Positions 1-24,941 of a stretch of DNA of 26,661 nucleotides are shown piece by piece (positions within the stretch are counted from its first letter, which is position 1; each line of letters opens with the position of its first letter). The position numbers and the translations under genes are program-made. The notes under the pieces are model-generated. The model saw only the letters and a list, made by a program, of their open reading frames with translations. It did not search any database and was not told the origin of the DNA. This DNA is from a virus: the IMG/VR virus record IMGVR_UViG_3300051212_000851, positions 1 through 26,661 of that record; one strand, written 5' to 3'.

Positions 1-126
1 CACCACAGGTAGTCAAGGCACCACAGGTAGTCAAGGCACCACAGGTAGTCAAGGCACCACAGGTAGTCAAGGCACCACAGGTAGTCAAGGCACCACAGGT
101 AGTCAAGGCACCACAGGATTTCAAGG
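1..126 (+). repeat. 18-bp tandem repeat encoding collagen-like hexapeptides
   Basis: Six perfect copies of an 18-bp unit (CACCACAGGTAGTCAAGG) start at bases 1, 19, 37, 55, 73 and 91. A seventh, degenerate copy occupies 109-126. Each unit encodes two Gly-X-Y triplets (GTT GSQ). The array reaches the window edge, so its true copy number is unknown. Perfect identity at the DNA level suggests recent expansion by slippage or recombination. Confidence 0.97.
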
Positions 127-751
127 AAATGCTGCCAACGTACAAGGTTTCCAAGGTTTTCAAGGATTTGTAGGTAATCAAGGCAGTACTGGACCCACAG
201 GACCTATTACAGGAGTCACAGCAGGAAGCTATCTAACAGGCGGAGGAAGTAGTGGTACAGTAACATTGAATGTAGATGCTACATCAGCTAATACTGCTAG
301 TAAAGTGGTAGCTCGTGATGGTAGTGGTAACTTCAGTTGCGGAGTAATGACGGGAACAGCCACAGCAGCAAGATATAGTGACTTGGCAGAAAACTATGTT
401 GCTGATAATGCCTATGAACCAGGCACAGTATTAATGATTGGTGGAGAATATGAAGTTACCCTTGCTATTAATGAAACAACAAGACTAGCAGGTGTGATAA
501 GTACAGCACCAGCACACTTGATGAATAGCGATTGCGCTGGTGAACACGTAGTAGCTATTGCTCTACAAGGACGAGTTCCTTGTAAGATACGTGGATCAGC
601 GCTTAAGGGTGATATGTTGATCAGTGCGGGTGATGGTTATGCTAAATCAGTAGGCACTAATGAACCAAAACTAGGACAGGTAATAGGTAAAGCATTGGAA
701 AATTTTAACGGAGACGAAGGTGTAATTGAAGTAATGGTAGGCAGGTTATAA
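2..751 (+). CDS. Tail-fibre protein with collagen-like repeat, 5'-truncated
   Basis: The reading frame is open from the left edge, so the gene begins outside the window. The visible N-terminal part is a collagen-like Gly-X-Y run (GTTGSQ repeated), followed by irregular GFQ/GNQ/GPTGP triplets to about base 215. A Gly/Ser/Thr-rich linker follows, then a globular C-terminal domain of about 150 residues that begins near DGSGNFSCG and contains SDLAENYVADNAYEPGTV. Similar SDLAE-Y-EPGT domains occur at the C-termini of structural proteins of T4-like marine phages. Collagen triplets in phage fibres form trimeric shafts. The stop codon overlaps the next ATG (TAATG), so translation is probably coupled to the next fibre gene. 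Role as a fibre or whisker is inferred; the receptor is unknown. Confidence 0.8.
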   Translation, partial: TTGSQGTTGSQGTTGSQGTTGSQGTTGSQGTTGSQGTTGFQGNAANVQGFQGFQGFVGNQGSTGPTGPITGVTAGSYLTGGGSSGTVTLNVDATSANTASKVVARDGSGNFSCGVMTGTATAARYSDLAENYVADNAYEPGTVLMIGGEYEVTLAINETTRLAGVISTAPAHLMNSDCAGEHVVAIALQGRVPCKIRGSALKGDMLISAGDGYAKSVGTNEPKLGQVIGKALENFNGDEGVIEVMVGRL

Positions 752-3700
752 TGGCAATAAATTGCGTAGGTGGTTTACCATCAAACATAGAAGGTTATCA
801 AATACAAGGTGCCCAAGGAATACAGGGTATACAAGGCGCACAGGGTACACAAGGGTTACAAGGGCTTAAAGGACCAACAGGATTACCTGCTCCTTCCTCA
901 ACCTATACACCAATTGGATCAGCACCAACTAGAACTGCTAATGGTAATGTAGCATTTGATCCTGTATCAGGTGGTAGTTACAGTTGGTCTGATATTGAAG
1001 TTGATTATAGTGCTCACATAGATGAAGTTATAAATCAATTACATAGATTGAATGATACACATTGGTCTATTAAAGAGTTAATGGAAGTTCTAGTAACACA
1101 AGTTACACAAATCAGAACTGATCAAGACATAATGGCTCAACAGCAAACATTAATGGCCATACATCAAGCTAATATGGATGTCAGCTTAGCCAGTATCAGA
1201 GATAATCATGACCTAATACGCATTGTACAAGAACATATGCGTAAGTTAGCTGATACTACAGGTATCACCACAAGAAGTCCATATGACTATTTGTATACCT
1301 ATAGTGCTGTTCGTGGATTAGAAATAGACGGAATCAGTGTAGGACAAGCAATTAATACATTTAATGGCCTACCGGCACAAACATTGGCCAGCCCACCACC
1401 AAGTCAAACACCTCCACCAGCCAGTCAATTAATGTGGAAAGGTATTTGGGATGAAACAAAGACCTATATGAAGGACGATATTGTTTTTCATAGTGGTAAA
1501 GCATATACAGCAGTAAGGAAGAATGTAGGTTCTCCACCAGATGATAATAAGATATGGAAATCTGTTGTGGATATGGATGTTATCAAGTCTGAAGAACCAA
1601 AAGAAGTTTGGAAAGGAACATGGAACAAAGTTACTAATTATCCTGCTGGTAGTATTGTAATTTTCAAGGATGGATTAGACGAAGAACACGTAAACAGTCT
1701 AAATGATCTATTGAATAGCACTGCCGCATCTACAATTTATAAGGCATATGATAATATTCCTGCCTTTATCACATCCAATATCAAGCCCACTGATCCACCT
1801 GACGCAGCAGGACATCGTTGTTGGCTCCCAGTAGATTATGAGGAAGAAGCATTTGACGAATGTGCTACAAGTGAAGTCAAAGGTATTCAAATTGTCAGCA
1901 TGTCTGGTGATTTCACTTGTCCGGATAATAGCTTAGGTAAATTACAAATTGATGCTCCTGTAGTAGTTAGGAAAATATGCTACAAGATTGATGACTTTGT
2001 ACAAATGTACAAGGGAACTTATTCTACAAGCGTATATAAGGCCAGAGCAGAAGAAATTATACCTTTGTATACTGGTAATAATGAATATACTACTAGTGGT
2101 GGGGATACTCGTTATGCTATAGCACGTAATCCAGATCACGCAGGCTTGGGCTATTGGACTACACTGAGCTTACAGCAAGGTTGGTCAGCCTCTAGTACAG
2201 AATTAGTAACAGCGTTTTTTAGTTCTTTAGATTCAATACCTAATTATACAAGACATTTGACAGCAGAAAAATCATTTGATACTACTGGTAATGGTTGTGG
2301 CTTTTACGCTGATCCTGATAATTGGAGCGCAGGTAATAGTCAAACATTTAATTGGACCAGTAGAACTGTTCCTAATACTGTAGGTGTAGGACATCCAGCT
2401 TGGGGTCCTAAGATGTTTGAGTACGCTATATGGGACGCTCCTAATGTGTATAATCCTATATGGAGACCGATCAGTGGAAATGATGGTGTACATAATATAG
2501 GAATTAACAAAACAATAAAAATTAGTATATTGGGTGGGCCTCCTAATACAGTGGTACAAATAGCTAAATCAGCCAATGTGAATAACTTCTTTGGTACAGG
2601 CTATGTCGCAGGAACAGTATTGAGTGGAACTATAACTTTAGACAGTGAAGGTAAGTTTGAGGATGCTACACAGTTTTATCCTATCATAGGAGTAGCAAGT
2701 TATACAGCAACATTTGATAGCACAAAAACTGTGCTCAATGGATATACTAGAACATATACTGTAAATGTTTTTGAAAGTTATCAAGAGCCACAAATACCTA
2801 GTGATCCTAAAAATTCCAGTTATGACCTTGTAAAACAACTTAATGTTGGTTACGAATTTAGCAGAGAAACTGTAATTAATTTCCCATTTGATGCTACGTA
2901 TATCTTCCAAGGTTGGGTTGATAATTGGGGTAAAGTCACATTAGATGGTGAAACTGTTTTAGATTTTAACAACAACTTTTTAGTAACTAGTGAACCAGCA
3001 TTGAAAGCGGTTCCTGTCAAAAAGGGAAATCATGTTATAAAATTATTTGCCATAAACTATGGGCCACAAACAGAGGGTAATCCAGGTGGTATAGGATTGA
3101 GTATTAGTAGTGGTGGTATAGGGAAAATTATTGATCATCCTTCAATTAAAACCTATAAGATTAAAACTACAAATGGAACCAGTAATTTTAGGTTAGTAAA
3201 TTTAAATGGATCTGACATATCCACCATTCCTGGATCAGCAGATGGTTATATTTTTAATTTAGAAAAAGTAGAACCCAATGCCAACACCACAGAGGTTGAG
3301 TTTAAAGGATGTTGGGAAGATTGTACCATATATGAAGTTCATCAAATGGTATTACATAATGAAAAAACTTGGGTAGCAACAAAAACTAATACAGGAAATG
3401 AACCTAACGAAAACAGCAGATATTGGCGTACAATAACTACCGAAGAGGCTGCTTTTATTGATGATCCTCCAACATGGAAAGGTGCTTGGAACGATGAAAC
3501 AACCTATGTTAAACATAGTATTGTAAGTTTCAAAGATGAGTCTTGGATCTGTAATAAGCTAGTAAGCAGTGTTCCAACTCCTCCACCACCAGATGAGACT
3601 CCTAATGATTGGAAGATTGTAGATGATGATGGAATACGTTGTCAAATGCCATTCCAAGAGTATGTAGAACCTCCAGTAACACCAGTAGAAGAAGATACTA

Positions 3701-6949: not shown

Positions 6950-7115
6950 GTCTATACCAACAGATATAGTAACACCAGAAGAGGATGAGGCCTGGAGCCT
7001 TTTCCTCCGAAAGTATGAAACCCTAAAATTGCCACCTGTACAAACACAAAAAACAGACATAGAAGAGGAGATTTATAGCGATGGCTTATTCGGAAAAAGT
7101 GTTAGATCACTATGA
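6879..7115 (+). CDS. Possible small acidic protein without an ATG start
   Basis: Between the His-rich protein and IscU one frame is open and reads like protein (SIPTDIVTPEEDEAWSLFLRKYETLKLPP), but it has no ATG. The only usual start is a TTG at 6879, which would overlap the upstream gene by 71 bases, and there is no clear ribosome site. It runs 35 bases into iscU. It may be a real coupled gene with an unusual start, or a decayed gene. Function unknown. Confidence 0.3.
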   Translation: MKKRVGIRTKWVEQFMVQSTDVSKSIPTDIVTPEEDEAWSLFLRKYETLKLPPVQTQKTDIEEEIYSDGLFGKSVRSL

Positions 7116-7473
7116 GAACCCACGCAACGTAGGTTCATTCAATAAAGATGAAGAAGGAGTAGGTACTGGTATGGTTGGCGCTCCGGCTTGTGGTGATGTA
7201 ATGAAATTACAAATTAAGGTAGACAATGAAACAGGAATTATCACAGATGCGAAATTCAAAACGTATGGCTGCGGCTCAGCGATCGCAAGTTCATCACTCG
7301 TTACGGAATGGGTCAAGGGTAAGACGTTGGATGAGGCGGGATTTATTAAGAATACTCAAATCGCCGAACATCTTGCACTCCCCCCAGTTAAAATACATTG
7401 CTCGATTCTTGCTGAAGACGCTATCAAAGCCGCAATAAAAGATTACCAATTAAAGCATAATCCTGTCAACTAA
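7081..7473 (+). CDS. iscU: IscU Fe-S cluster assembly scaffold
   Basis: A 130-residue protein of normal IscU length. All cluster ligands are visible: Cys37 and Asp39 in PACGD, Cys64 in YGCGSA, and Cys107 in KIHCSILAED. The LPPVK motif (residues 100-104), which Hsp70-type chaperones (HscA) bind during cluster transfer, is intact. IscU receives sulfur from IscS and iron, builds [2Fe-2S] clusters in the cytoplasm and passes them on. No IscS, HscB or HscA is visible, so it would rely on the host ones, or on the phage DnaK encoded at 14385. A GAGGAG site lies 12 bases before the ATG, a long spacing. A terminator follows. IscU is common in bacteria but unusual in a phage. Confidence 0.95.
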   Translation: MAYSEKVLDHYENPRNVGSFNKDEEGVGTGMVGAPACGDVMKLQIKVDNETGIITDAKFKTYGCGSAIASSSLVTEWVKGKTLDEAGFIKNTQIAEHLALPPVKIHCSILAEDAIKAAIKDYQLKHNPVN

Positions 7474-8165: not shown

Positions 8166-8492
8166 ATGATCACACTAACAGAAACTGCCGCAGAACGTGT
8201 TAAGTCCAACTTGGCTAAACGTGGTAGGGGTTTGGGCATACGTGTAGGAGTAAAAACTACAGGATGTAGTGGTCTAGCCTATGTATTAGAATATGTGGAT
8301 AACCCAACATTAACTAGAGATCAATTTGTCTATGATAGTTACGGTGTCAAAGTTTATGTAGATGGCAAAAGCCTTGTGTATGTTGATGGGTTAGAGATGG
8401 ATTGGGTCAAGCAAGGGCTCAACGAAGGATTTGAATTTCGCAATCCTAACGAGAAAAATCGTTGTGGATGCGGAGAAAGTTTTAATGTCTAA
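8166..8492 (+). CDS. iscA: IscA/HesB A-type Fe-S carrier
   Basis: A 108-residue A-type carrier of normal length. The three family cysteines are present: Cys34 in TTGCSG and Cys100/Cys102 in RCGCGESF. The central LEYVDNP and [18 protein letters not shown] segments also match the fold. A-type carriers hold and deliver Fe-S clusters or iron to client proteins. HesB/IscA genes are known in T4-like cyanophages and pelagiphages. It lies 0.7 kb from the phage iscU but is separated by terminators, so it is not in the same transcript. The ATG has no visible Shine-Dalgarno. The next gene overlaps by 8 bases. Confidence 0.93.
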
Positions 8493-9459: not shown

Positions 9460-9999
9460 ATGATACGCATTGTTAAAATGCTACTAGTTCTAATTGCCTT
9501 GATAGGTTTAGGATGGGTAGGTTATAAAGTAGTAATGTTTAAACTGGATGAAAACAAAGAGATCAATATCAAAATGAGTTCTTTGAAACATACTCCAGTT
9601 GAAAGTATGACTAGGCAGTTAGAGTGTCTTGCTCGTAATGTTTACCATGAAGCAGGTAGTGAGCCATTTGAAGGCAAAGTAGCAGTAGCACAGGTCACAT
9701 TGAACAGAGCCAACAGCGGCGTATTCCCATCAGACCTATGTAAAGTAGTTTACCAAAAAAACTTAGTCTATGAGAAAGTACTTTGCCAATTTAGTTGGTA
9801 TTGTACTAATCCTGCTCGAAATAAACCAGTTCATGCTGAAGCCTACAAAGAAAGCGAAAAGGTAGCTAGAATGGTCATGCTCGAAGGGTTCAAACTACCC
9901 AGTTTAACCGAAGCCATGTACTTCCATGCCAAATATGTAAATCCAGGATGGAAGCGTGAAAGAGTAGCAGTAATAGGTCAACATATTTTTTACAAGTAG
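9460..9999 (+). CDS. SleB/CwlJ-type cell wall hydrolase with N-terminal anchor
   Basis: A 179-residue protein. Residues ~5-27 form a membrane segment (signal-anchor). Residues ~54-179 match the SleB/CwlJ hydrolase_2 domain: LECLARNVYHEAGSEPFEGKV with probable catalytic Glu64, then VAQVTLNRANSGVFPSDLC, CQFSWYC, and YFHAKYVNPGW near the end. These enzymes cut the glycan strand of peptidoglycan. In a phage the likely role is lysis, with the anchor giving a SAR-like or periplasmic endolysin. The next gene encodes a small multi-pass membrane protein, as expected for a holin neighbour. AAGGAG precedes the ATG. Confidence 0.85.
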   Translation: MIRIVKMLLVLIALIGLGWVGYKVVMFKLDENKEINIKMSSLKHTPVESMTRQLECLARNVYHEAGSEPFEGKVAVAQVTLNRANSGVFPSDLCKVVYQKNLVYEKVLCQFSWYCTNPARNKPVHAEAYKESEKVARMVMLEGFKLPSLTEAMYFHAKYVNPGWKRERVAVIGQHIFYK

Positions 10000-14384: not shown

Positions 14385-16262
14385 ATGAGTAAGGTAATCG
14401 GTATCGATCTCGGTACTACTAATAGTTGCGTCGCCATTATAGAAGGCGGCAATTCCCGTGTAATAGAAAACAGCGAAGGCGCACGTACTACACCCAGTAT
14501 TGTAGCCTACACAGATGATGAAATCCTTGTAGGTGCCAGTGCTAAACGACAAGCTGTTACAAATCCAAAAAATACAGTATATGCAGCCAAACGCCTAATC
14601 GGACGTAGGTTTAAAGAAGAGACTGTACAAAAAGATTTAAATTTAATGCCCTATGAAATTTTTGAAAGCACAAAGGGTGATGCTTGGATTAGAGCTCAAG
14701 GTAAAGAATTAGCTCCTCCACAAATATCAGCAGAAGTATTACGTAAAATGAAAAAAACTGCTGAGGATTATTTGGGCTATGAAGTTACACAAGCCGTAAT
14801 CACGGTTCCAGCATATTTTAATGATAGTCAACGTCAAGCTACAAAAGACGCAGGCAAAATTGCAGGTCTTGAAGTATTGCGTATTATCAACGAACCTACT
14901 GCGGCAGCATTGGCCTATGGTGTTGATAAGACAGATAAAAAAGATCGTAAAGTAGCCGTATATGATTTAGGCGGCGGTACTTTTGATATTAGTATTATTG
15001 AAATTGCCAATCTAGATGGTGATAAACAGATCGAAGTATTAAGTACTAACGGTGATACGTTCTTAGGTGGTGAGGATTTTGATCAACGTATTATGGACTA
15101 CTTGGTTGATACCTTTAAGATGGATCAGGGGATTGATCTTACTAAAGATGTATTGGCTCTACAACGTCTTAAAGAGGCAGCTGAAAAGGCTAAAATTGAA
15201 CTCAGTAGCAGTGCTCAAACAGACATTAATCTACCATATGTTACTGCTGATGCCAGTGGGCCAAAACATATGAACTTAAAGTTAACTCGTGCTAAACTAG
15301 AAAGTCTAGTAGATGACTTGATTGAGCGTAGTATTGCTCCATGTCGTACTGCTATGAAAGATGCTAATGTAACACCAGCAGATATTGACGAAATTATTCT
15401 TGTTGGTGGTATGACACGTATGCCTAAAGTACAAGAGGCAGTTGAAAAGCTATTTGGTAAAACACCACGTAAGGATGTAAACCCAGATGAAGCAGTAGCA
15501 GTAGGTGCCGCAGTGCAAGGTGCAGTATTAAGTGGTGAACGTAATGATGTATTACTACTTGATGTTACTCCACTAAGTTTAGGTATTGAAACATTGGGCG
15601 GTGTAATGACCAAGATCATCCAAAAGAATACTACAATCCCAACAAAGGCCAGTCAATCATTCAGTACTGCTGATGATAATCAACCCGCAGTAACTATTAA
15701 AGTATTCCAAGGTGAACGTGAATTTGTTAGGGATAATAAATTACTTGGTGAATTTAATTTGGAAGGTATTCAGCCTCAGCCTAGAGGCGTGCCACAAATT
15801 GAAGTAACCTTTGACATTGATGCAAATGGTATTATGAAGATCAGTGCTAAGGATAAGACTACAGGTAAAGAGAACAAGATCACAATCAAGAGTGATAGTG
15901 GACTTAGCAAGGATCAAATTGAAAAGATGATTCGTGAAGCCGAAGCAAATGCTGAGGAAGATCGTAAACAGCGTGAAATTGTTGACTTGCGTAACCAAGT
16001 TGACACACAGATCTATCAGATCCGCAAGGATTTGAAAGAGGTTGACTCAACGCTAACTCAAGCTGAAAAGGATAATGTTGAAGCAGCCATAGCCAGTGTA
16101 TTGACCGAATTAGCCACAGGCAATAAGGAAATAATCACACAAAAGATCAGTGATCTAGCAGTGGCAGCACAAGTTATCTATAAGGCTAAAGAAAGCCAAA
16201 GTCAACAAACTGATAAGGACGTTACTGACGTAGACTTTAAGGAAGTTAAAGACGCGGCATAA
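14385..16262 (+). CDS. dnaK: DnaK (Hsp70) chaperone
   Basis: A complete 625-residue Hsp70, close to the usual 640. The ATPase domain has [13 protein letters not shown], the phosphate-2 motif [14 protein letters not shown] and the adenosine motif [16 protein letters not shown]. The linker is [15 protein letters not shown], followed by the substrate domain and a helical lid, ending in [14 protein letters not shown], a normal DnaK tail. DnaK refolds or holds proteins with DnaJ and GrpE; neither is seen here, so host co-chaperones would be used. The codon style matches neighbouring phage genes, arguing against a very recent acquisition. It has a late promoter and a ribosome site (AAGGAGA) in a leader resembling that of hsp20. 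Likely roles are capsid or tail folding or support of the phage IscU. Confidence 0.97.
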
Positions 16263-16268
16263 TGTGCT

Positions 16269-16276
16269 TATAAATA
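16269..16276 (+). promoter_or_regulatory. Late promoter TATAAATA upstream of hsp20
   Basis: An exact TATAAATA seven bases after the dnaK stop and 58 bases before the hsp20 ATG, mirroring the distance before dnaK. Confidence 0.7.
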
Positions 16277-16279
16277 GTC

Positions 16280-16334
16280 AAGTGGTGCTCGGGTGAGGCC
16301 ACTTTTAATCTTGCTTAACTAAGGAGAAATTGAA
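16280..16334 (+). promoter_or_regulatory. Structured 5' leader of hsp20, similar to the dnaK leader
   Basis: AAGTGG (16280-16285) pairs with CCACTT (16299-16304), with an inner CTC/GAG stem and GGGT loop. The inner stem is CTT/AAG in the dnaK leader, a compensating change. TTAATCTTGCTTAACTAAGGAGA follows in both with few differences. The hairpin is also followed by TTTT, so it could act as a weak terminator for dnaK. Confidence 0.45.
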
Positions 16335-16775
16335 ATGACACAAACACAATTAACTAGAATGGACACAGCGGCTTTAAATAGAGCGCTTATCGGTTTTGAT
16401 CGTATTTTTAATACTATGGAGCGTACTTACGCTAATAGTGTTAATAACAACTACCCACCTTTTAACATCGAACGCAGAGGCGATACCTATACAATCACTG
16501 TAGCTATCGCAGGCTTTGAGCGTGAGGAGATTGATGTCAGTGTGGATCAAGACCAACTCATTATTACAGGACAAAAGAAACCTGTAGTAAATGATGATGA
16601 GCTTGAAACACTATATAGAGGTTTAGCTCTACGTAATTTTGAACGTACATTTGCCTTATCAGAGCATATGGAAGTCAAAAGTGCTGAAATCAAAAACGGT
16701 CTACTGACCATTGTAGTAGAAAGAATCGTTCCTGAAGCATTATTGCCAAGAAAGATTCAAATTAAGGAAGCCTAA
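16335..16775 (+). CDS. Small heat shock protein (Hsp20/IbpA type)
   Basis: A 146-residue alpha-crystallin-domain protein. An IbpA-like N-terminus (LIGFDRIFNTMERTYANSVN, then YPPFNIER) precedes the conserved domain (YTITVAIAGFEREEIDVSVDQDQLIITGQK, GLALRNFERTFAL, and AEIKNGLLTIVVER). A short tail carries the LPRKIQIKE anchor motif. Small Hsps hold unfolding proteins for DnaK to recover. Hsp20 genes are common in T4-like cyanophages and pelagiphages, usually near structural genes. It sits between dnaK and clpS, with its own late promoter. Confidence 0.95.
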   Translation: MTQTQLTRMDTAALNRALIGFDRIFNTMERTYANSVNNNYPPFNIERRGDTYTITVAIAGFEREEIDVSVDQDQLIITGQKKPVVNDDELETLYRGLALRNFERTFALSEHMEVKSAEIKNGLLTIVVERIVPEALLPRKIQIKEA

Positions 16776-16817: not shown

Positions 16818-17135
16818 ATGGCTGTTGATACAGAAATCACTACTGATATTAAATTAGACGAAAAAGTTAAACAGAATATTAAAGAGCCAAAAAAATGGCA
16901 TGTTGTATTTTTAAATGATGACCATACTCCAATGGAGTTTGTAATCAGTGTATTAATTGAAATTTTTCATCATAGTAACGAAACTGCGACTAATATTACA
17001 CTCCAAATTCATGAGTCTGGATCTGGGATCGCAGGTACATATAGTTTTGAGATCGCGGAAATTAAAGCAGTGGAAACTACTAACTTAGCAAGGGCTAATG
17101 GATTTCCGTTACAGATCAAACTGGAGGAAGAATGA
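16818..17135 (+). CDS. clpS: ClpS protease adaptor
   Basis: A 105-residue protein with the ClpS core: WHVVFLNDDHTPMEFVISVL near residues 29-48, the His-containing HHSNETATNITLQIHESGSGIAGTYSFEIAEIKA section and a C-terminal FPLQIKLEEE strand. The N-terminal extension (about 25 residues) is the part that reaches the ClpA pore in family members. ClpS brings N-degron substrates to ClpAP and lowers ClpAP use of SsrA-tagged proteins. A phage copy alongside a phage tmRNA could redirect host proteolysis. It starts an overlapping clpS-heme oxygenase-bilin reductase run; ACGGAGG precedes its ATG. Confidence 0.95.
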   Translation: MAVDTEITTDIKLDEKVKQNIKEPKKWHVVFLNDDHTPMEFVISVLIEIFHHSNETATNITLQIHESGSGIAGTYSFEIAEIKAVETTNLARANGFPLQIKLEEE

Positions 17136-17680
17136 GTTTAAGAGAGATTACTAAGGATCTACATCACGAAGCAGAAACAACTAAGTTTGCCAAAATGTTA
17201 TTGAGTGGCAAAATCAGTAAAGAAGATTATGCTAATTATTTGTATCAACTATTGCCTATTTACGGACCAATTGAATTTGGTAATCGTATGTTAGGACATT
17301 TTGCTAACATACAGGGTATTGAAAGATTACCGGCAATTTATCAAGATTTTATGGAATTAGCTGGTCCAGATCACAAGTTTACTTGGCTACCACAGACCCT
17401 AGCCTATCATGACTATTTGGTCCAACTAACCAATGACCTTGATCGTAGGCACTTGCTCAAAGCACACTTGTATTGTCGCCACATGGGTGACCTAAATGGT
17501 GGCTTGATCATTAAGAAGCAGGTAGCACACATCAGCAAGGGTAAGTTTTATGAGTTTGAAAATCCTGATCAACTTAAAGTAGCAATCAGATCCGAACTAA
17601 CAGATGATTTAGGTGATGAAGCTCGTGTGGCCTTTGAATGGGCCATTAAGATGATGAGGGATTTATATAATGGAGAGTAA
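17132..17680 (+). CDS. hemO: Heme oxygenase
   Basis: A 182-residue soluble heme oxygenase. LREITKDLHHEAE carries the proximal heme ligand (His11 by alignment with the TKELH motif), and the distal-helix motif MGDLNGG lies at residues 118-124 with ACC-like GGLIIKK following. It opens heme to biliverdin, iron and CO using electrons from ferredoxin or another reductase. Its ATG overlaps clpS by four bases and its stop overlaps the bilin reductase by 11, giving a coupled two-step pathway heme to biliverdin to reduced bilin. The released iron could also feed the phage Fe-S genes. Phage heme oxygenases are known from cyanophages and from the oceanic-phage PcyX pairs. Confidence 0.92.
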   Translation: MSLREITKDLHHEAETTKFAKMLLSGKISKEDYANYLYQLLPIYGPIEFGNRMLGHFANIQGIERLPAIYQDFMELAGPDHKFTWLPQTLAYHDYLVQLTNDLDRRHLLKAHLYCRHMGDLNGGLIIKKQVAHISKGKFYEFENPDQLKVAIRSELTDDLGDEARVAFEWAIKMMRDLYNGE

Positions 17681-18350
17681 AGTTTGGGATAGTCTAATTA
17701 ATGTACAGCATTTATTAGAAGACAATTTCACTCGAACTGGCACAGAAGTATTTGAAGAAGGCATGGATAGGTTCAATCAACCAGGTTGGGTCAATCGTGT
17801 CTGGAGCAGCGATAGTTATCGTCGTGCTCACGTAGATGTAGTAGATGCCAGAGAAAAGAAAGGTTTGTGGATGATGCATTGTTGCGTATTTCCACATACA
17901 CATAACCCAGCTCCCATATTTGGTTTTGACGTAATAGCCGGTAAGAATAAAATCACCGGCTGTTTTTATGACTTTAGCCCAACTACCAGAAGAGATCATC
18001 CCATGTTAGAGTGGTTTGAGCATGAAGTCAATAAGATGGAGTGGCGTAAGGAAAGAGCACTTCCAGATTGGGCACAACGTATATTCAGTAAGAGTATGGT
18101 GGCTGCTGGAAATGTCCAGGACGAACACGAACTAAATCAAATCTTTAGCATGGCTCGTACTGGTGTTGAACACTATCTCGCCAATGTAGGTGAAACTAAT
18201 GGACAAGGGGATAGTAGAGAAGCACAGAATTTCTACGCACACAACCAAAAAATGAACCCACATACACCTAAAGTGATGACCAGTTTGGGATTAAATGAGG
18301 AGGATGTTAGGGTATTCATCCAGGAGTGTTTGTTCCCAGAGCTACGCTAA
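17670..18350 (+). CDS. pcyX: Ferredoxin-dependent bilin reductase, PcyX/PcyA-like
   Basis: A 226-residue FDBR-family protein. PcyA active-site residues are conserved with exact 17-residue spacing: His70 (MMHCCVFP) and Asp87 (IFGFDVIAG), equivalent to PcyA His88 and Asp105. YDFSP follows at 100-104. Near the C-terminus is FYAHNQKMNPHTPKVM, where the usual NDKT of PcyA reads NPHT. FDBRs reduce biliverdin stepwise with ferredoxin electrons; PcyX from oceanic phages makes phycoerythrobilin in a four-electron reduction (Ledermann and colleagues, 2016). The product here is not decided by sequence alone. A heterotrophic host would have no phycobilisome, so the purpose of the pigment is open. It overlaps the heme oxygenase gene by 11 bases. 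Confidence 0.88.
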   Translation: MESKVWDSLINVQHLLEDNFTRTGTEVFEEGMDRFNQPGWVNRVWSSDSYRRAHVDVVDAREKKGLWMMHCCVFPHTHNPAPIFGFDVIAGKNKITGCFYDFSPTTRRDHPMLEWFEHEVNKMEWRKERALPDWAQRIFSKSMVAAGNVQDEHELNQIFSMARTGVEHYLANVGETNGQGDSREAQNFYAHNQKMNPHTPKVMTSLGLNEEDVRVFIQECLFPELR

Positions 18351-20938: not shown

Positions 20939-21061
20939 AAGATTAAATAAATTTGTAGCAAAAAGGGGGAATATAATTCCTTCGGCTGAGTACAGAAGCA
21001 ACTTCATAAAGGCTCTGCGAAGTAGTACAAATAGTAGAATACAAAACGCTCTACTCTACAA

Positions 21062-21160
21062 ATGAAATATGTAGGCATTTTAATCTTAATTTTTGGGCTT
21101 AGTTTATTATTGATTCCGGCAATAGGTATTATTGTCGGGATTTTAAAAAAGTTATTATGA
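21062..21160 (+). CDS. Tiny membrane peptide
   Basis: A 32-residue, nearly all-hydrophobic peptide (MKYVGILILIFGLSLLLIP...) with a KKLL tail. It overlaps the next gene by ATGA. Its size and hydrophobicity recall small phage membrane peptides; function unknown. The preceding gap (20925-21061) holds the late motif of the minus-strand gene and no other clear signal. Confidence 0.5.
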   Translation: MKYVGILILIFGLSLLLIPAIGIIVGILKKLL

Positions 21161-21333
21161 ACATACGTAAAGTTGCTGATCGAGCAGGAATAGAATTAAC
21201 TGAAGAAGTAGAATTTTTTGCTGAATTATTAGCAGAAGAGTGTGCTGAAATAGCAGAAAGTGCTTGGGCTGTAAATCTTCCAGCAGGACCTATTATACGT
21301 AGGCATTTTAATCTAGTAGAGCCTAAACGGTAA
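21157..21333 (+). CDS. Small acidic protein
   Basis: A 58-residue protein (MNIRKVADRAGIELTEEVEFF, AEECAEIAESAW) with a strongly acidic helix and a basic C-terminus (PIIRRHFNLVEPKR). Translationally coupled to the tiny membrane peptide. No family recognised. Confidence 0.6.
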   Translation: MNIRKVADRAGIELTEEVEFFAELLAEECAEIAESAWAVNLPAGPIIRRHFNLVEPKR

Positions 21334-21340
21334 GTGTAAA

Positions 21341-21348
21341 AATAAATA
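21341..21348 (+). promoter_or_regulatory. Late-promoter-like AATAAATA next to a start codon
   Basis: It ends 4 bases before the ATG at 21353, followed by CTAG and no ribosome site. Confidence 0.45.
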
Positions 21349-21352
21349 CTAG

Positions 21353-22105
21353 ATGCGATTCCGAGAAATCATCAAAGAACTTTTAGACCCTAAACTAGCC
21401 ATAGATCTTGAATGGGCAGAGGGTAGTGACTATATTGCTGCCAGAGGTAATGTCACAGTGACAGATCCTGATGGCTTTGGCGGTGAATATGGCAACGAAC
21501 AAGAAGTAGAACTAGAAGTAGAATTTGGGGAATTTCCACATAGAAATCGTAAAGAATACGAAGTTCAATTTAAAGTAGGCGATAGTTATGCTATTACAGG
21601 TGGTGGCAACGCTAGTGTTATTTTTGCCACTGTTATACAGGCCTGTAAAGATTTCGTGGAAATGTATAACCCAGATAGATTATTCTTCACAGCAAAAGAG
21701 CAGTCCAGAGCAAGAATGTACGACACCATAACTAAACGTGTGGCCAAGCAGGTAGGATGGCACGTTATACCATTTGATGAAATACAAAAAGATCCATTGT
21801 ATAGGAATAATAGTGATAATGGGTTCGTGTTTGTCATAGGGAAAGGTGCTGCACCTGAAAAATGGTCTAGTGCTCAACAGCCACAACACGGTAGTTTTAT
21901 GCCTATTTTCTATGTATATAATGTAGATAAAGATACACCTACTGTGGCAGTTAAGGTTAGGGCTCCAAATAGAGAGACTGCTATTACACACGCCATGAAA
22001 ATAGAACCCAGTTTTAAAGATTTGGATTCAATGCAGATACACGCCTTGAGCAGCCTACCCAAGCGTGAAGTCACTGATGTAATAGATGGGGGCACAGCAA
22101 AATAA
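21353..22105 (+). CDS. Unknown protein with capsid-targeting-like N-terminus
   Basis: A 250-residue protein starting MRFREIIKELLDPK, similar to the MRAREFIYE start of the gene at 18361. The middle (about 45-125) alternates strands and helices, including FKVGDSYAITGGGNASVIFATVIQAC and NPDRLFFTAKEQSRARMYD. The latter resembles the core of small phage proteins with an acetyltransferase-like look, though no CoA motif is clear. The C-terminus has an all-beta/alpha section (PTVAVKVRAPNRETAITHA). Role unknown; a virion-packaged protein is possible. Confidence 0.6.
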   Translation: MRFREIIKELLDPKLAIDLEWAEGSDYIAARGNVTVTDPDGFGGEYGNEQEVELEVEFGEFPHRNRKEYEVQFKVGDSYAITGGGNASVIFATVIQACKDFVEMYNPDRLFFTAKEQSRARMYDTITKRVAKQVGWHVIPFDEIQKDPLYRNNSDNGFVFVIGKGAAPEKWSSAQQPQHGSFMPIFYVYNVDKDTPTVAVKVRAPNRETAITHAMKIEPSFKDLDSMQIHALSSLPKREVTDVIDGGTAK

Positions 22106-22119
22106 TATACTCAAAAAAG

Positions 22120-22148
22120 TTGACATTCTGTTAGACTTTTATTATTAT
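22120..22148 (+). promoter_or_regulatory. Sigma70 promoter of the tmRNA gene (TTGACA-17-TATTAT)
   Basis: A consensus -35 (22120-22125), a 17-base spacer and TATTAT (22143-22148) place the transcript start near 22155, just before the predicted acceptor piece. Early, host-polymerase expression is expected. Confidence 0.8.
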
Positions 22149-22154
22149 AAAGAT

Positions 22155-22408
22155 TATTGTTGTATGAAGGAAATTGAAGAACGAACAAGACCCCGGTTCG
22201 AATCCGGGCATCTCCAAAACAGGGGGGATGAATTGGTATCGATTGGCGTATGATAGAGGACTGGACAACACGAAAGGCGAAGGACGTTATCCTAGCAAAC
22301 TAAATAATCGCAAACGACGATTACTTTGGAGAAATTCGCCTAGCAGCGTAAACTCCACGGGGTTGGTAACCTTGTAACTAAATAACCAGTGGGGCATTTT
22401 GCCCCACT
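22155..22408 (+). ncRNA. ssrA: Circularly permuted (two-piece) tmRNA
   Basis: The 3' half of a tmRNA precedes its 5' half. Acceptor piece: T stem CCCGG/CCGGG (22192-22208) with loop TTCGAAT, then CATCTCC and discriminator A22216. A 7-base spacer (22217-22223) follows. Coding piece: GGGGATG (22224-22230) pairs with CATCTCC, including the G3-U70 wobble recognised by alanyl-tRNA synthetase, followed by the conserved AATTGGTATCGATTGG D-region. The tag frame opens at GCA 22310 and reads ANDDYFGEIRLAA, stop TAA 22349. CCA is not encoded. TGTTGT (22158-22163) could pair with ACAACA (22265-22270) to join the pieces. The RNA rescues stalled ribosomes and marks the products for ClpXP/ClpAP. It has its own promoter and terminator hairpin. 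Confidence 0.93.
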
Positions 22409-22412
22409 TATT
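22388..22412 (+). terminator. Terminator hairpin after tmRNA
   Basis: AGTGGGGCA (22388-22396) pairs perfectly with TGCCCCACT (22400-22408) around TTT. The following TATT is a weak U-tract, but the 9-bp GC-rich stem is strong. Confidence 0.75.
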
Positions 22413-22425
22413 CGTTTGAGTTTAT

Positions 22426-24065: not shown

Positions 24066-24941
24066 ATGAAGAAAACTATTCTTGCAGTAGCATTAATGGC
24101 CGTTGCCGGTGCTGTACAGGCACAGGTAACAATGAGTGGTAAAGTAGGCGCTTATGCCGATCGTACAGAAGTTGGATCACGTAGCGCAACTACAGTAGCC
24201 ACAGAACCAACTAACAATATCAATATCACAGCAGTAGAAAAAGTTGGTACAATGACTGCTCGTGCTGTTATCGAGACTAGCATCGGTGATAATACATTTG
24301 GTACACCAGGCACACGTCTTGGTGATCGTCAAATGACTGTAGGTATTGATACTGGTATGGCTGGTTTAGCATTTGGTCGTAACACACACGGCCTATTCAA
24401 TACTATCGCAGGCAGTGATGTATTCGGTGCTGTATATGGCTCATTAGTAGGTGACGTACATAACCTACGTGGCCTACGCTTAAGTGACAGTGCTTTTGTT
24501 ACACTAACTCCAGCCAAAGGTATGGGTTTCGGTGTAGATCGCACTCAGGGCCTAGCACAAGAAGTCACCGTACTCAGTGGTCACGGTAAGGTTGGTCCAG
24601 CACACATTAGCGTAGCACGTTATGATGCGGGCCGTGAAGAAAGTACCGTTATCGCCGCAACTACAACTTTAGGTGGTATTAACCTAACCTACAGTCACAG
24701 TGATAACAAGGGTGCTTACGCACACAAAGGTGACCTATTTGGTGCCTCACGTAAGATTGGTAATATGACTGCCAAAGCCAGTTATGGTCGTACCAATCGT
24801 GACGTAGATGCCTATGCCATTGGTGTAGATTACCATATGAGCAAGCGTACAGATTTGGTAGTAGCATATCGTAGCGTAGATGCTAAGGTAGCAGCCAATG
24901 ATGTAAGCCAAGTTGGTTTTGGAATCGTACATCGTTTCTAA
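24066..24941 (+). CDS. Gram-negative (betaproteobacterial-type) porin
   Basis: A 291-residue outer-membrane beta-barrel. The signal peptide MKKTILAVALMAVAGAVQA is cut before QVTMSGKVGAYADR, the start of Burkholderiales porins. Amphipathic strands recur (VEKVGTMTARAVIETSIG, TVGIDTGMAGLAFGRNTHGLF, LTYSHSDNKGAYAHKGD) and it ends VSQVGFGIVHRF with the terminal Phe needed for BAM insertion. It is shorter than the usual ~350-400, so loops may be trimmed. A phage porin is unusual: it could change permeability, act in superinfection exclusion or replace a host porin. Terminated by a strong hairpin. Confidence 0.85.
   Translation: MKKTILAVALMAVAGAVQAQVTMSGKVGAYADRTEVGSRSATTVATEPTNNINITAVEKVGTMTARAVIETSIGDNTFGTPGTRLGDRQMTVGIDTGMAGLAFGRNTHGLFNTIAGSDVFGAVYGSLVGDVHNLRGLRLSDSAFVTLTPAKGMGFGVDRTQGLAQEVTVLSGHGKVGPAHISVARYDAGREESTVIAATTTLGGINLTYSHSDNKGAYAHKGDLFGASRKIGNMTAKASYGRTNRDVDAYAIGVDYHMSKRTDLVVAYRSVDAKVAANDVSQVGFGIVHRF

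Follow-up and report, generated by a model that had tools for sequence, protein, structure and literature searches.

The window analysed here, the whole 26,661 bases of an IMG/VR virus record (a linear fragment), very probably carries a functional phage gene for a two-piece tmRNA, judging from its sequence and its relatives. The complete, circularly permuted gene was located by covariance models and by sequence at 22156-22408 on the plus strand. Read 5' to 3', it consists of promoter-like -35 and -10 elements, the acceptor half, 7 nt, the coding half with the tag ANDDYFGEIRLAA, and a terminator. A first-pass annotation had proposed a phage-encoded, circularly permuted tmRNA, and each feature that it named lies where it had placed it. 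The covariance-model search that it suggested gave a match to RF04321 (tmRNA_permuted) at 22158-22351 (115.1 bits, E 4e-22, full-length model 1-213) and one to RF01850 (beta_tmRNA) at 22107-22410 (101.6 bits, E 4e-30). These scores exceed the curated cut-offs of 47 and 84 bits, respectively, and both matches are far beyond chance. The RF01850 score identifies the gene as beta-type; the copy in a second, closely related phage contig (L009) scores 97.0 bits. ARAGORN did not report the tmRNA gene in the window, and a BLASTN search of the tmRNA against 50,697 phage records gave no match. The minimum free energy fold of the whole transcript has a z-score of -2.0 and differs from the model fold. A 67-codon frame that overlaps the tmRNA (22174-22377) was taken as chance.

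All parts of the gene lie on the plus strand. The host-type promoter of the first-pass annotation is confirmed as a promoter-like element: a sigma-70-type arrangement at 22120-22148, with TTGACA (22120-22125), a 17-nt spacer and TATTAT (22143-22148), agrees with the consensus at 11/12 positions. Six sites in the window score at least 11/12, counting both strands, and one of them stands just 5' of the tmRNA on the correct strand. The acceptor half (22156-22216) is defined by the RF04321 match, the sequence and covarying pairs. It comprises the 5' strand of an outer inter-piece helix (22158-22163, whose partner is 22265-22270 in the coding half), the T arm (22192-22208), the acceptor 3' strand CATCTCC (22209-22215) and A73 (22216). 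CCA is absent from the gene after A73, a point missing from the first-pass annotation; according to the tmRNA database paper (PMC11915505), not every tmRNA gene has CCA at this position. The intervening segment AAACAGG (22217-22223), which is expected to be removed, is identical in L009. We considered whether a 7-nt gap is unique and rejected this, since bacteria and other viral contigs have gaps of 6-10 nt; in genomes of Prochlorococcus and of Rhodocyclaceae/Accumulibacter, the acceptor stem is followed by 6-10 nt.

The coding half, delimited by both model matches, runs from the acceptor 5' strand GGGGATG (22224-22230) to the tag stop at 22351. The ends of the two halves, of which the acceptor half is encoded first, form 7/7 pairs of the acceptor stem. 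The alanine-identity pair G3-U70 is present as G22226-U22213, intact as the first-pass annotation had claimed, and the T arm has a TTCGANT loop. Also as claimed, the tag is in frame and ends in LAA: ANDDYFGEIRLAA (22310-22348), 13 residues with a hydrophobic LAA-type end, is followed by TAA (22349-22351). Its resume codon is GCA, preceded by TAATC. The 3' part of the coding half (22352-22387) aligns where the beta_tmRNA model has its last structured region, and an intrinsic-terminator-like hairpin of 9 pairs follows at 22388-22408.

L009 has nearly the same tmRNA. Between 22157 and 22395, 238/239 bases are identical (99.6%), and the single difference, GCA to GCG at 22345 in tag codon 12, is synonymous. 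The eight neighbouring genes are 77-94% identical (5242/5895 bases in total), significantly less than the tmRNA (Fisher p 6e-11, or 4e-5 against the adjacent methyltransferase gene alone). The identity starts and stops at the ends of the tmRNA. The DNA 5' of the gene is non-homologous in L009, yet TATAAT stands there in place of TATTAT, and the terminator loop differs (ATTTT in one contig, TTCG in the other) while the stem is intact in both. Selection acting on the RNA, and not on the DNA segment as such, would produce this pattern, though recent exchange may contribute. Indeed, the tmRNA could be real and its near-identity to L009 merely the product of a very recent cassette exchange, so that conservation would say little about selection; the genes 5' of the cassette differ between the two phages and the cassette is missing from other relatives, as such an exchange would have it. 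We nevertheless consider this unlikely as the full account, because the identity ends at the RNA ends, the differing terminator loop sits on a stem that still pairs, and a wider phage set shows independent covariation. When the tRNA-like domains of 71 distinct phage sequences are aligned, many two-sided, compensatory changes are seen in the acceptor stem, the T stem and P2, and G3-U70 is invariant (71/71). The window carries A-U, A-U where 69 others have U-A and G-C; its upper P2 pairs less well than that of its relatives in the register of this alignment.

A functional two-piece tmRNA gene would imply the following course of events. Host RNA polymerase would make the precursor early in infection, RNase P would cut it at 22223/22224, 3' processing would trim it after A73, and the host CCA-adding enzyme would supply the CCA missing from the gene. 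The two pieces would remain paired and receive alanine. Aided by SmpB and EF-Tu of the host, the RNA could then enter ribosomes that have stalled on broken mRNA, expected to be plentiful in infection, add AANDDYFGEIRLAA and free the ribosome. The LAA end would direct the product to ClpXP or ClpAP. No SmpB gene was found in 50 related tmRNA-bearing contigs, and the host protein is presumably used for this reason.

A possible functional partner is encoded on the contig itself, namely the adaptor ClpS (16818-17135, plus strand, PF02617, 1.1e-28), preceded on the same strand by DnaK and Hsp20 chaperone genes (14385-16775; PF00012, 5e-259, and PF00011, 4e-16). ClpS inhibits degradation of ssrA-tagged proteins by ClpAP and promotes that of N-end substrates; the phage protein could shift the traffic of tagged product to ClpXP or ClpAP. 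Counted irrespective of kinship, ClpS occurs in 16/50 tmRNA-bearing viral contigs versus 3/38 contigs picked by methyltransferase, and a permuted tmRNA in 15/34 contigs picked by ClpS versus 1/16 picked by methyltransferase. Counted in this way, the co-occurrence on phage contigs is suggestive only. We found no literature joining phage tmRNA and ClpS. Other genes on the contig include a putative bilin-making pair, heme oxygenase (PF01126) adjoining a ferredoxin-dependent bilin reductase (PF05996), at 17132-18350; iron-sulphur assembly genes of the IscU (PF01592) and IscA (PF01521) kinds at 7081-7473 and 8166-8492; and a Gram-negative porin (PF13609) with a leader-like N-terminus at 24066-24941, whose protein is 74-92% identical in relatives.

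The RNA might also be charged and enter ribosomes chiefly as a competitor, its main benefit being to displace the host tmRNA and tag and so alter proteolysis of nascent chains, rather than rescue. The tmRNA of phage DS6A, which has no coding frame, is reported to inhibit the endogenous tmRNA in E. coli (PMC11915505); ClpS, able to change the substrates of ClpAP, is on the contig, and tags vary widely among the relatives. However, mere competition would not call for the intact tag frame, resume context and stop that we find here, with a synonymous change as the only one, and the tag of the window resembles a bacterial one. We regard competition as the main role as improbable.

Not all close relatives have the gene. 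The two that come nearest after L009 keep the gene order of the window but lack the tmRNA gene: L157, and a contig of 399,796 bases whose L156 region is 81% identical over 5.5 kb. In L156, only about 116 bases take the place of 1,480 in the window (20941-22420), a segment that holds a small ORF, a gene at 21353-22105 and the tmRNA. The permuted tmRNA model had no match in the entire 399,796-base record. The tmRNA is thus dispensable, as two close relatives do without it, and the comparison suggests that it comes and goes within a small cassette. This absence, the ARAGORN miss, the lack of an encoded CCA and the weaker pairing of upper P2 count against a functional gene. A short membrane-peptide ORF lies at the cassette edge (about 21060-21160) and is also found in the cassette-less L156 and L157 (about 9870-9975). 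Relatives picked by the methyltransferase that adjoins the tmRNA are mostly without tmRNA.

The first-pass annotation had also proposed capture from a betaproteobacterial or alphaproteobacterial source. The betaproteobacterial type stands, by the RF01850 match; recent capture does not agree with the tree. In a midpoint-rooted FastTree tree of the tRNA-like domain, built from a short alignment with a limited bacterial sample, the window and L009 fall inside a group of 114 sequences, almost all phage (support 0.84), and the window is 1.1 from the nearest sampled bacterial beta-type gene and 0.55 from the nearest other phage group. The closeness to a bacterial permuted tmRNA that would mark recent capture of a host ssrA gene was not found. 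Because the bacterial beta-type genes lie about twice as far away as the nearest phage genes, this phylogeny is best read as placing the tmRNA of the window in a beta-type phage lineage, not as showing a fresh host capture. That it is a functionless piece of host DNA, or the remnant of an integration event at a host tmRNA gene, is very improbable: tmRNA genes are frequent integration sites (PMC11915505), and the gene is absent from close relatives, but it is entire, has its own control elements, is kept at 99.6% while its neighbours drift, and belongs to a separate phage lineage of more than 100 sequences.

The first-pass annotation knew of no well-described permuted phage tmRNA, which is incorrect: a 2022 study (PMC9004378) counted 133 distinct tmRNAs in 402 phages, predicted 53 of them to be two-piece and described the Methylophilales phage Melnitz. 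The window is a new example of the permuted phage tmRNAs reported then. Like those of Melnitz and the other two-piece phages, its tmRNA is phage-encoded, permuted and tagged, and follows a predicted early promoter. The Melnitz tmRNA belongs to the alphaproteobacterial type and is associated with a glutamine riboswitch, whereas ours is beta-type and an Rfam search of the window reported no riboswitch. With the betaproteobacterial permuted tmRNAs (RF01850) it shares gene order, tRNA-like domain, P2 helix and 3' part. It differs from these bacterial genes in its RF04321 score (115 bits, compared with 123-176 in 14 genes of the group that are clearly permuted), its 13-residue tag and the lack of CCA in the gene. 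A beta-type, permuted phage tmRNA is also present, unannotated, in the cultured Xanthomonas jumbo phage XacN1 (AP018399.1; L610, 2500-2799, RF04321 123.2 bits). This one has the tag ANANTFDYALAA, a longer gap, and several tRNAs and a GOLLD RNA nearby, the latter at 3839-4252 of L610, about 1 kb from the tmRNA in a stretch without annotated genes.

The tag of the window resembles ANDSFYGESRLAA of Burkholderiales-group bacteria, with which it shares the pattern AND-x-aromatic-aromatic-G-E-x-R-L-A-A. A search with the tag pattern in 399 bacterial genomes (order of a betaproteobacterial reference) found six tags, all ANDSFYGESRLAA, and the 5/5 genes examined are standard one-piece tmRNAs. Bacteria with a similar tag might have been expected to carry their gene in permuted form; this was not borne out, as the matching tags are in one-piece genes. 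Since the ANDSFYGESRLAA genes examined are unpermuted, the permuted phage gene bears a tag of the kind that some bacteria of this group make from a one-piece gene. Seven relatives (L405, L411, L429, L439, L449, L459 and L462) have the tags ANDAFYGEDRLAA or ANDAFYGEERLAA.

What would surprise a specialist is the large, little-described lineage behind the window, with its long tags and genes in the gap. A viral scan with the coding-half motif alone gave at least 120 viral stretches, and 64 distinct genes were parsed among the matches listed. In these 64, the gap (A73 included) is 24 to 272 nt long, with a median of 76, and starts with ACCA in 58; the tags are 10-31 residues long. Ten of the 64 genes parsed among the matches listed have a start codon in the 5' part of the gap, preceded by a Shine-Dalgarno-like or purine-rich stretch and opening a frame that spans 21 codons or more and closes within the gap. 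Many more came from a second scan that targeted such frames. Among them is L433, where the tmRNA (28-539, minus strand, 136 bits) encloses a thioredoxin gene of 84 codons with a Shine-Dalgarno sequence (PF00085, 4e-21); its stop lies one base before the acceptor stem, as do those of many gap ORFs. Nine contigs (L351, L391, L408, L482, L503, L518, L549, L582 and L596) encode one family of membrane peptides of roughly 23 residues in the gap. With mostly silent substitutions (pS 0.49, pN 0.20), this family looks to be under purifying selection. Predicted base pairing joins its ribosome-binding site to the ORF end, and in many gap-ORF relatives the gap ends are predicted to pair with each other, which would put the ribosome-binding site in a stem. 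L364/L365 have a 478-nt gap with two ORFs, and the gap of L359 contains a tRNA-Arg (ccg) gene (1693-1767, minus strand). The gap of L363 is similar to that of L359; ARAGORN called no tRNA in it. The gap of the window holds no gene.

PMC11915505, which lists 79 phage sequences among 97,179, describes one permuted tmRNA whose intervening sequence contains a tRNA-Ala gene and calls it unique; the available text does not mention protein genes in tmRNA gaps. It resembles the relatives of the window phage in having a gene in the gap. It is a single case, however, whereas the phage relatives also hold protein genes and the gap of the window is empty. Tags of 23-31 residues occur in L349, L352, L356, L366, L407, L541 and others, for example AKSAFKFYEVDVAVNDSKFALAA and ANADTFDFSAMSFTGNTVRGAANESRFALAA, and many long tags have an extra N-terminal segment before an NDxxFALAA-like end. 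We tentatively propose, with slightly less than even confidence, that freshwater-type phages including this one have a long-standing two-piece tmRNA lineage, in which the gap offers room for genes and the tag changes freely, and which with phage ClpS and chaperones may steer protein quality control in infection.

A phage with its own ribosome-rescue RNA is a means of finding out how trans-translation serves a virus; the same question was raised for Melnitz. This locus provides a sharp test case, with the gene present or absent in close relatives, a tag like that of bacterial one-piece tmRNAs, and ClpS on the same contig; ClpS and tmRNA in one phage make their interplay testable. The relatives widen what a permuted tmRNA gene can contain, and their tmRNA precursor also looks like an mRNA.
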